A stretch of 64,000 nucleotides of DNA, taken from IMG/VR virus record IMGVR_UViG_3300023273_000812, positions 37,750 to 101,749 of that record, one strand, 5' to 3'. Numbering within the stretch: position 1 is the stretch's first letter; each line of letters begins with the position of its first letter. Made by a program: the position numbers and the translations under genes. Positions 5,842 to 61,545 of the stretch are shown here, piece after piece. The notes beneath the pieces were generated by a model. It saw nothing but the letters and a program-made list of their open reading frames with translations, searched no databases and was not told the DNA's origin. Origin of the DNA: a virus.

Positions 5842-5857
5842 AATAGGTTGTTTATCT
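5842..5857 (+). promoter_or_regulatory. late-promoter-like motif AATA-N5-TTTATCT
   Basis: One base after the stop of the preceding gene. It matches the recurring AATA-N5-TYTATAC element except for the last two bases, and lies directly ahead of the terminator at 5864. Promoter function is inferred. Confidence 0.4.
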
Positions 5858-5863
5858 TGTATT

Positions 5864-5892
5864 AAAAGGAGAGTGATACACTCTCCTTTTTT
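5864..5892 (+). terminator. intrinsic terminator
   Basis: AAAAGGAGAGTG, an ATA loop and the perfect complement form a twelve-pair stem followed by T residues. It ends the replication operon. A near-identical hairpin lies at 63771. Confidence 0.9.
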
Positions 5893-5903
5893 AGGTTTAA
5901 GTT

Positions 5904-6938
5904 ATGGTAGATAGTAAGACAGTAGTAAAACGATATATACTCAGACAAGCGGCTTTACAGGCCTATACAGAAGCCACACAGTCTAGGTACGCTTTTAATA
6001 GTAGACAGGCCCGTAAAGTAAGACAAGAGTTTACAGTAGAGGTGTTTGAAGCTTTTACTTATCCTTTTTTAAAGAAGGCTGTAGATAAGTTTACAATCAA
6101 GGATGTGGTTAAAAAGGTTAAAGACATCTGGTTGGCTTTTCAAAAAGTTCCTAAGTATTGGGAACAGTTTAAAAGTATGTTAGGTATTACAGCTAAAAAC
6201 CTTATTACATTCACAGCACAGTTACCTAAAAAGATTATAGAGTTTTTCAAAAACGGATATAAAGGGTTTACAGATGTTGTTAAACAGATGCAAAGTAAAC
6301 TGTCCGAGTTTATGAAGGTGTTTAATGCTATAAGTAGTAACATTACTCCCTTTAACTTATTAATGGAAAAGGCTACAACATACCTAAAAGAATCCCCAGT
6401 CGGTAAACAGGTTATTGGTGTGTTAGACAACGGCAAGAAGAAAGCCGAAGACTTCCTTAGTAACATTAAGTTTAAAAGTGGTAATACTGGCTTAGACTTA
6501 ATGAAAGATATACTGAATACTTTTCTAGATGGTAAGGTATCCAATACAGTAGGTATACCTTTAAAGGCTTACATTTTCTTTGACATCTGGATTAGTGTGG
6601 CCGAGTTGTCTTGGGATTATACTGGAATCGTTAAAGGTATGTTAGGTCTTTTATCTTGGAGAGACTTGTTAGGAACACTACCTGAAAGTGGTGTGGGTTA
6701 CTTAGTAAATAAGTTTCTAGGTTTCGCCTTCCCTGGTTTTGCTATTTTTAAAGGATACTCTTTGTTGACAAAGATAACAGGTAATCGTTTGATGTTAGTA
6801 ATACCTGTGTTCCAAATTATTTACTTAATTAAAAATAAGTTAATAGCCATAGGCTCTTCCGTTATTAAGTTCTTTTGGGATAAGATGGGTATCCCAGACT
6901 TTAAGGACAAAGGATTGCCGGAAACAATAAGTTTGTAA
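5904..6938 (+). CDS. hypothetical protein with hydrophobic C-terminal half; possible virion cargo
   Basis: This 344-residue protein begins with a basic amphipathic stretch (VVKRYILRQAALQAYTEA) resembling the termini of the proteins at 9540, 25522, 28534, 29536 and 59219. Residues 45-175 are helical and lysine-rich. The C-terminal third has several hydrophobic segments (for example around KAYIFFDIWISVAEL and LMLVIPVFQIIYLI) that could insert in a membrane. A tagged, helical, membrane-active protein could be packaged and ejected with the DNA, but this is inference. It follows a terminator and has a poor ribosome binding site. No family is recognised. Confidence 0.7.
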   Translation: MVDSKTVVKRYILRQAALQAYTEATQSRYAFNSRQARKVRQEFTVEVFEAFTYPFLKKAVDKFTIKDVVKKVKDIWLAFQKVPKYWEQFKSMLGITAKNLITFTAQLPKKIIEFFKNGYKGFTDVVKQMQSKLSEFMKVFNAISSNITPFNLLMEKATTYLKESPVGKQVIGVLDNGKKKAEDFLSNIKFKSGNTGLDLMKDILNTFLDGKVSNTVGIPLKAYIFFDIWISVAELSWDYTGIVKGMLGLLSWRDLLGTLPESGVGYLVNKFLGFAFPGFAIFKGYSLLTKITGNRLMLVIPVFQIIYLIKNKLIAIGSSVIKFFWDKMGIPDFKDKGLPETISL

Positions 6939-6953
6939 ATAATCCTAGTATTG

Positions 6954-6974
6954 TTGACACGCATATAGTATATA
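6954..6974 (+). promoter_or_regulatory. putative early promoter of dnaX operon
   Basis: TTGACA at 6954-6959 is followed by TAGTATATA at 6966-6974. The same TAGTATATA occurs ahead of 1672 and 16968. Spacing does not fit a standard 17-base sigma-70 promoter built from these two elements, so recognition may differ. Confidence 0.45.
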
Positions 6975-6999
6975 TGTACAACAAGATTAGGAGATAGCT

Positions 7000-60052: not shown

Positions 60053-60067
60053 ACTAAGGAGTAAACA

Positions 60068-60568
60068 ATGTCTAAAAAACTAACAGTACAGAACTTACTT
60101 AAAGAAGTAAGAGAACTTAAGAAACTAGCCAGTAGAGATTGGTTGGTAGACCAAGTAATAGAATACGAAGACCCTAGTGAGGTTAGAGGTAAGATTGAGC
60201 AGGCTTTGTCGGGTATGGTTTCACCTTATCGTATTACAGACATTCAAGTTAATGGTGACATGGCGAATGTTACTTATACAAGAACACAACCTGTTCGGTT
60301 AAGCCAAATTGAACCTTGGTGGAAAGATGAGGATTTAGTAATCACGTTGTTTCGTGGTGTTGCAGACCCACTACAACACCAGCACCAACAGTTCTTGATA
60401 GATTATGATAATGTTGGCGCAACACCACTTTATGTTTCAATCATAAGGGAAGGAACGTACGAGGTTGTTAAGTCTTATAGGTTCGACTTAACGCATAATC
60501 AAGATAACGATTTGCGAAACATATATCGAACATTAGAAAAGGACCTTAAGAAACTGAGTCGTAAGTAG
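60068..60568 (+). CDS. leader-tagged cargo protein, paralogue of 12275
   Basis: This 166-residue protein starts MSKKLTVQNLLKEVRELKKLAS, a leader of the same design as MSRKITAKELLREVRTLKK at 12347. The following region matches the cargo there (VIEYEDPSEVRGKIEQAL, then IEPWW). The two lie 48 kb apart, so the family has spread within the genome. Function is unknown. Confidence 0.7.
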   Translation: MSKKLTVQNLLKEVRELKKLASRDWLVDQVIEYEDPSEVRGKIEQALSGMVSPYRITDIQVNGDMANVTYTRTQPVRLSQIEPWWKDEDLVITLFRGVADPLQHQHQQFLIDYDNVGATPLYVSIIREGTYEVVKSYRFDLTHNQDNDLRNIYRTLEKDLKKLSRK

Positions 60569-60576
60569 GTCTAAAC

Positions 60577-60592
60577 AATAAACAGTTAATAC
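60577..60592 (+). promoter_or_regulatory. late-promoter-like motif AATA-N5-TTAATAC
   Basis: One mismatch, 39 bases ahead of 60632 and abutting a hairpin. Confidence 0.5.
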
Positions 60593-60629
60593 AAACCCTT
60601 ATGTGTATACCAATCATGTAAGGGTTTTG
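60593..60629 (+). terminator. intrinsic terminator overlapping a leader
   Basis: AAACCCTTA and TAAGGGTTT are followed by TTGTT, ending three bases before ATG 60632. It could also control access to that start. Confidence 0.65.
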
Positions 60630-60631
60630 TT

Positions 60632-61531
60632 ATGAGTGTAGTATTTCAACAAGGGCAAGTGTTGGGTCGCAATGACCTAGACATATTCTTAACTAATTCT
60701 AGTGGTAATCCTACAAACGTTTACTACATTAGTTACAGTATCTATTATGTAGACCCTAGCACAGACCAAGAAGTTCGTATTGGTCCAGATAATAGAATAC
60801 CAATGAACCCAGAAGTGGGTGAGTACTATGCTAGTTTAATGGTACCCGCTAACGCTACTCCAGGTGATTATCGTATTCGTTGGCACATTAAAGAGTTGTC
60901 TACTTCTTTATTAGAAGGTGCTGTACAAGAGTTTGGTATTGTAACACAACAACAAGATATAAGTGTAAGCCCTTATTCGGATTGTGTACAAGACCTTATT
61001 CATAAGATGAGAGTTCTTACAAGAGACAACAATCCAGATCGTAACTATAGATTTAATCCACCAGAGGGTGAAGGTACGATTGGTTGTTATAACCAAGTGT
61101 TTGGTTATATATGGACAGACGAAGAGTTCTATGAGTACTTAGAGATTGCTTTGTGGAAGTGGAATATACATCCACCAAGTACAGAACATCTTACTAGCAT
61201 CGATAGACTATGTTCACAGAATCCAAGTTGGAAAGCCGCCTTGTTATGGGGCGCTTTGGTAAACGCAGCTCAAGCCTTAGTTTATAACTGGATCGCTAAC
61301 GAGTTTGATTACAGTATTGGTGGTATTTCCCTTAACATTGAAAAGTCTTCTAAGTATGAAGGTATGAAATCTAACGCAGAAGATCAATGGGATAAGTTAA
61401 CGGAAGCTAAGTCTAGAACAGTTAAGTATATGCGTGGGTTAAAGCAATCTAAGTATGGTGTGGGTATTCGTAGTTCCTTTGGTCCGTATGTGGGACGAGG
61501 TGTTTTATCTCCAAGGGCTTATGTGTCTTAA
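60632..61531 (+). CDS. virion structural protein, two-domain
   Basis: In this 299-residue protein residues 1-105 are an Ig-like domain related to the protein at 45841. Residues 120-299 are helical, with MRVLTRDNNPDRNYRF, WTDEEFYEYLEIALWKWN and WKAALLWGALVNAAQALVYN, a pattern I recognise from structural proteins of other large phages, possibly neck or baseplate. The basic C-terminus ends GPYVGRGVLSPRAYVS. Confidence 0.65.
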   Translation: MSVVFQQGQVLGRNDLDIFLTNSSGNPTNVYYISYSIYYVDPSTDQEVRIGPDNRIPMNPEVGEYYASLMVPANATPGDYRIRWHIKELSTSLLEGAVQEFGIVTQQQDISVSPYSDCVQDLIHKMRVLTRDNNPDRNYRFNPPEGEGTIGCYNQVFGYIWTDEEFYEYLEIALWKWNIHPPSTEHLTSIDRLCSQNPSWKAALLWGALVNAAQALVYNWIANEFDYSIGGISLNIEKSSKYEGMKSNAEDQWDKLTEAKSRTVKYMRGLKQSKYGVGIRSSFGPYVGRGVLSPRAYVS

Positions 61532-61545
61532 TAATTGGTTTATCT
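61530..61545 (+). promoter_or_regulatory. late-promoter-like motif AATA-N5-TTTATCT
   Basis: Variant overlapping the stop of the preceding gene, 36 bases ahead of ATG 61582. Confidence 0.45.

Follow-up and report, generated by a model that had tools for sequence, protein, structure and literature searches.

The element AATA-N5-TYTATAC, which recurs in a 64,000-nt stretch of viral DNA (the window; bases 37750-101749 of a viral record of 101,749 bases), belongs to a two-part signal that is almost certainly a phage-specific promoter common to a widespread clade of huge phages, whatever the composition of their DNA. That the element is a promoter for the phage's own genes, as had been proposed in an earlier reading of the letters alone (the sequence-only reading), is very probable and is well supported by its orientation, the contrast between divergent and convergent gaps, its spacing to start codons and its conservation in the clade. 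Reviews consider it likely that sigma-like proteins serve most jumbo phages without an RNA polymerase of their own at promoters specific to the phage (PMC13282480); the literature found defines no promoter for the present clade and has nothing relevant on the motif itself. Conserved from 36 to 67% GC, the motif can mark operons in unannotated huge-phage contigs, of which there are hundreds (531 relatives of the major capsid protein, MCP); it comes with a concrete candidate factor, and its promoter geometry is one for which standard initiation models have no explanation.

Judged by its encoded proteins, the window is a fragment of a huge phage, because LR745208.1, an uncultured phage of 485 kb, has a terminase with 54% identity to that of the window, and the MCP is 84-91% identical among the members of the clade, its 531 relatives being encoded in viral contigs. 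A blastn search of a phage collection gave no match; an overlapping, near-identical record of 102 kb (G001) extends the window to the left. Relatives were gathered via TerL, MCP and the sigma-like gene described below and range from 36 to 67% GC, those recovered with TerL from 40 to 65%. The terminases of G000 (37% GC) and of G003, G004 and G008 (62-65% GC) are 65-71% identical, so that base composition has shifted very strongly inside one phage clade. The contig of one relative with a capsid protein 89% identical (RFZO01000100.1) was assigned by binning to an Actinomycetota metagenome-assembled genome, a weak hint as to the host.

The element in the window

Nine exact copies of AATA-N5-TYTATAC are found in the window. 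Eight are intergenic and aimed at the next gene, in a record of which 7.8% is non-coding (binomial p ~1e-8); the number of intergenic exact copies expected under order-1 to order-3 Markov models is 0.05-0.08 per strand, or ~0.1 in total. The ninth, at 19311 on the minus strand, is antisense inside terL and was absent from the list of the sequence-only reading. When the regions upstream of the window's genes were searched de novo by EM, the motif not being supplied, the top motif was taAcAATAattagTtTATAc, with a log-likelihood of 112 versus 64 in shuffled regions; it came out best at widths 20 and 26, and variants of it at width 32. Three bases, (A/T)AC, are therefore to be placed before AATA-N5-TYTATAC. 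With up to two mismatches allowed, 118 matches compare with 98 expected; looser copies thus hardly exceed chance as a class, and those with two mismatches are credible by their position only. With a matrix made from the eight exact copies, the held-out sites scoring at least 14 were five in non-coding and one in coding DNA. Matrix scans of this kind, the check suggested along with the promoter claim, revealed enrichment between genes in the window as well as in the relatives, and no equal frequency in coding regions. Every plus-strand copy that had been listed is present:

5842..5857, plus strand: weak copy (two mismatches), 1 nt past the stop of ORF 5382-5840; a terminator-like hairpin is next; before ORF 5904-6938
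9493..9508, plus strand: exact copy, 2 nt past the sigma-like gene's stop codon and 31 nt before ORF 9540-9845
12232..12247, plus strand: exact copy, holds the stop of ORF 11901/11961-12236, 27 nt before ORF 12275-12997
17752..17767, plus strand: exact copy, holds the stop of ORF 17349-17756, before ORF 17805-18371
19054-20949: terL, reached via ORF 17805-18371, downstream of the 17752 element
34483..34498, plus strand: exact copy, past a terminator-like hairpin, 95 nt before ORF 34594-35256
35272-36147: major capsid gene, after ORF 34594-35256, downstream of the 34483 element
37513..37528, plus strand: one-mismatch copy in a divergent gap, before ORF 37588-38388
46393..46408, plus strand: exact copy in a divergent gap, before ORF 46578-48470
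46472..46487, plus strand: second exact copy, before ORF 46578-48470
50801..50816, plus strand: weaker copy (two mismatches), before ORF 50875-51384, terminator-like hairpin in between
51387..51402, plus strand: exact copy, before ORF 51466-51822, terminator-like hairpin in between
51894..51909, plus strand: exact copy, downstream GTAG box at +13, before ORF 51931/51979-52563
55540..55555, minus strand: copy before the gene starting at 55503; matrix scores 17.9 and 14.0
55842..55857, plus strand: weak copy (two mismatches), before ORF 55895-56071
57450..57465, plus strand: one-mismatch copy, before ORF 57494-58183; best held-out score, 16.4
60577..60592, plus strand: one-mismatch copy, before ORF 60632-61531, terminator-like hairpin in between
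61530..61545, plus strand: weak copy (two mismatches), before ORF 61632-62135; overlapped at 61542 by a face-to-face minus-strand near-copy

Copies had been said often to touch the previous stop codon; this is true at 9493, 12232, 17752, 51387, 57450, 50801, 5842 and 61530, the stop codon falling within the motif at 12232 and 17752, while the copy at 37513 adjoins the start of a divergent gene and not a previous stop. The minus-strand copies are a mixed group: the one at 55540, ahead of gene 55503, is strong, those at 57034, 46503 and 37544 are weak. At 5842, 50801, 51387 and 60577 the hairpin between motif and start codon carries a T-run; at 61530-61557 the two near-copies on opposite strands have bases in common.

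Conservation and geometry of the element

The relatives (36-67% GC) carry the variant (T)CGGTAG-N4-YCTAT, in which the spacing from TA to YTAT is unchanged. De novo search in G003, G004, G006 and G007 yielded tCGGTAG-N4-TCTAT or CGtTAG-N4-TCTATA, in which first-box T and second-box Y are as far apart as in the window; the two-box element was thus recovered independently in relatives of 55-64% GC, and both boxes are present in every variant from the window and the relatives. The structural block of LR745208 (485 kb) gave TAg-N5-CCTAT and its first 180 kb did not; EM on G001, G005, G008 and G009 singly was weak or drifted to ribosome sites. Matches to a matrix trained on G004 were, at thresholds of 10-12 and with gene calls from a custom script, mostly 8- to 144-fold denser in the non-coding DNA of the other genomes; the result was poorest for LR745208 (5- to 6-fold), because a variant of its own is present in this phage.

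Of 63 non-redundant contigs (36-67% GC), nearly all have the element in the gap that follows the sigma-like gene, 89% of these gaps scoring above the 95th percentile of shuffled gaps and 73% above the 99th; here the element is almost always no more than 15 nt from the stop and has the reduced core C-(G/A)-N-T-N7-YTAT. At 30 of 238 non-redundant sites, the stop codon of the previous gene is itself the TA(G/A) of the first box. Orientation was assessed in six genomes: of 296 gaps between genes of the same direction, a sense copy occurs in 89 and an antisense copy in 4, and a copy is present in 26 of 50 divergent versus 1 of 21 convergent gaps. Start codons mostly follow more than ~21-24 nt past the end of the motif (mode 24-26), as expected if a leader with a ribosome site has to come after it.

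From 60 to 17 nt upstream the information is flat (mean 0.014 bits per position), and there is no -35 box; the core contains 14 bits, a figure inflated by the selection of sites. YTAT of the second box is conserved, without a T three bases on, at the equivalent of sigma-70 position -7. The earlier statement that this is not the sigma-70 consensus is therefore borne out, as that consensus has a -35 box ~17 bp upstream of -10 and, in its -10 box TATAAT, the T at -7. A third, weak box, GTAG, is located 13 nt past the last T (29 at the exact position versus ~1.5 per position) and is present also where the start codon is distant.

The sigma-like protein and the proposed mechanism

Upstream of the exact copy at 9493 lie the sigma-like gene, those clustered with it and, nearby, that of a sliding clamp:

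1935..3068, plus strand: DNA polymerase processivity factor (sliding clamp), phrog_947, 1.6e-25
7000..8370, plus strand: clamp loader subunit in the same gene cluster, phrog_5846, 3e-49
8354..8893, plus strand: NusG-like/KOW protein, overlapping the sigma-like gene; possible elongation partner
8886..9491, plus strand: sigma-like protein of 201 aa, region-4 helix-turn-helix (HTH) at ~45-102 and second HTH at ~122-162; candidate specificity factor

The 8886 protein matches Pfam Sigma70_r4 (PF04545) at 7.6e-13, above the cut-off, and region 4 of SigF and FliA among PDB profiles. Its AlphaFold model (pLDDT 79) has two HTH units, the residues before them being of low confidence, and matches region-4 structures locally only; to SigF region 4 it is 42-43% identical and superimposes at 1.2-2.4 A over 53-60 columns. 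In 56 orthologues both HTHs are strongly conserved, with almost invariant recognition helices (QPTVCYRL and QGLVRHRF), and so is a hydrophobic C-terminal tail. The orthologue of one GC-rich relative is encoded at L160:10001-10624. The protein is kept in relatives spanning its locus, and the cluster of sigma-like, NusG-like and clamp loader genes, with the sliding clamp nearby, across much of the clade. Region 2 (PF04542) gave no match in the protein or the phage records searched, with a model that may miss gp55-like proteins.

Overall, the explanation that we consider probable is a two-box clade promoter used by host core RNA polymerase together with phage factors. The first box, (A/T)ACAATA in the AT-rich window phage and (T)CGGTAG in the GC-rich relatives, would lie ~9-10 bp upstream of the second, near -20, with no -35 box; in an ordinary promoter this place is spacer only. 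The second box, YTAT(A/G), eight bases from first-box T to second-box Y, would be a -10-like melting element, with transcription presumably starting ~6-11 nt past YTAT. Host core polymerase would be recruited by phage factors, most likely including the 8886-9491 protein, with its region-4 HTH on the beta flap and one of its two HTHs reading the first box; each copy would start one operon, among these the operons for capsid and packaging and for the gene immediately downstream of the sigma-like one. The motif, its spacing, orientation and conservation can be read off the genomes directly; the promoter function, the start point, the binding, the melting factor and the timing we infer from them.

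That the protein helps host core RNA polymerase to reach the element has, in our estimate, a somewhat better than even chance. Its part in reading the element, claimed earlier, is plausible on circumstantial grounds: it is kept in relatives whose contigs span its locus, it is the best DNA-binding candidate, no phage RNA polymerase was detected and the gap downstream of its own gene has the motif. Motif and protein are both clade-wide, and their co-occurrence is therefore not independent evidence for a link between them. Against the protein reading the first box, its recognition helices are almost invariant while that box shifts from ACAATA to CGGTAG; also, the usual binding place of region-4 domains is near -35 and not near -20.

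As the search of the phage records yielded no region 2, something must melt the DNA, and it could be that the host primary sigma occupies the second box, with the tandem-HTH protein as an activator on the first, comparable to T4 MotA/AsiA. The two HTHs of the protein would suit this arrangement, but the second box has no T at -7, where a sigma-70 -10 element would have one, and the first is nearer than the MotA box of T4 middle promoters, which is found near -30; this is rather unlikely. Less probable again is a promoter of a single-subunit phage RNA polymerase of the T7/SP6 type, with the start right after the second box. Such promoters are about 17-20 bp long and without a -35 box, that of SP6 reading ...TAG-N6-CTATAG, and the compact element with its TA and CTATA boxes, its TAG-N5-CTATR in particular, and with no information upstream comes close; however, the spacing is one base shorter here, no G start or G-run follows the motif, the region-4 protein would be without a role, and the candidate polymerase was rejected when PF00940 was negative in LR745208 (485 kb) and the contigs tested and positive in the T7 control. 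For a multisubunit enzyme of the phage no candidate was seen either: in the records searched there was neither a match to Rpb2_6 (PF00562), for which divergent jumbo-phage subunits were not among the controls, nor a convincing DxDGD protein.

A switch of promoter plus terminator on the lambda pR'-tR' pattern, which the NusG-like protein (8354-8893) would relieve, was suggested by the four T-run hairpins ahead of start codons in the window, yet no such hairpin is found downstream of any of 140 scored sites in relatives, and the hairpins, which may merely end the upstream transcript, are confined to the AT-rich window genome; the switch was dropped as a general feature and is improbable. Most improbable of all is an element working as RNA, as processing site or leader structure, for which the nearby start codons, a possible pairing of GTAG at +13 with CTAT and stems slightly longer than in flank-swapped controls could be adduced, since the CTAT/GTAG stem is without covariation, the slight excess of small hairpins directly past the motif is within composition effects, and the presence of copies for both directions in divergent gaps, with almost none in convergent ones, is not required of a processing site.

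Relation to known promoters, and timing

The two-box promoter is akin to the phage-specific promoters of T4 (late), SPO1 and AR9 but by its features could be assigned to none of these groups. Like T4 late transcription (gp55/gp33/gp45), it would be phage-specific, lack a -35 box and combine host core with small phage factors, and sliding clamp and clamp loader genes lie near the sigma-like protein; gp33 of T4, for its part, mimics region 4 (PMC2988020). In T4 the sliding clamp activates late transcription through C-terminal clamp-binding motifs; the sigma-like protein has at its C-terminus the conserved hydrophobic tail noted above. T4 differs in having a single 8-bp box (TATAAATA) and no upstream box, as opposed to two boxes at fixed spacing; TATAAATA is absent, in agreement with the earlier statement that this is not the T4 late consensus. 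A further difference is that the protein here has a recognisable region-4 HTH accompanied by another HTH; a gp55-like protein was not identified. Group 2 jumbo phages have minimal sigma factors with a single HTH, apparently without an assigned promoter (PMC7824862); these phages, too, lack an RNA polymerase of their own and encode a region-4-like protein, but not the tandem of two HTHs. These minimal factors and the split sigma of T4 (PMC2988020) are the nearest ideas.

The late promoters of AR9, used by its nvRNAP, read AACA-N6-T(A/G) (PMC7598289), likewise two short boxes, and the AT-rich version of the element also begins with AACA; the GC-rich relatives, in contrast, are without AACA, and no beta-subunit family match was found. 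With SPO1 late and group 3 (SigF/FliA-type) promoters there is the link that SigF/FliA are the closest PDB matches to region 4 of the phage protein, and a first box CGTTAG resembles the SPO1 late -35; those promoters, however, have roughly 11-18 bp between boxes and the element about 5. Its two-box spacing is ~one helical turn shorter than ordinary -35/-10 spacing, which together with the missing region 2 sets it apart as a variant from known phage promoters. Tentatively, it may represent a class with boxes near -20 and -10, served by host core and a region-2-less, tandem-HTH region-4 protein, and in use throughout a globally spread clade at any GC content.

The designation of the element as late is partly supported. 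Late use is suggested because copies are absent from the 20-40 kb stretch of G001, an early-type block, and present ahead of the MCP and terminase operons; some, in relatives as well, precede non-structural genes. That same stretch of G001 contains most of the 15 G001 copies (18.4-38.8 kb for all 15; L031, L032) of another repeat, GTTTCCTATATATATATGTGGAAGGAAACCAC-N2-TAAAAAATAG, which is strongly conserved and usually found 40-60 nt ahead of small genes; the window has one copy (63732-63763, minus strand). This repeat is probably an early promoter or early leader of the window phage. In the first 180 kb of LR745208 (L019-L022), genes are preceded by yet another repeat, about CCCTCCTGTGCCGATAGGG, analogous to this one but not the same. 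The tandem-HTH sigma-like protein has a second paralogue, a diverged one, in this region (L022:3904-4695, plus strand), possibly an early-class factor.
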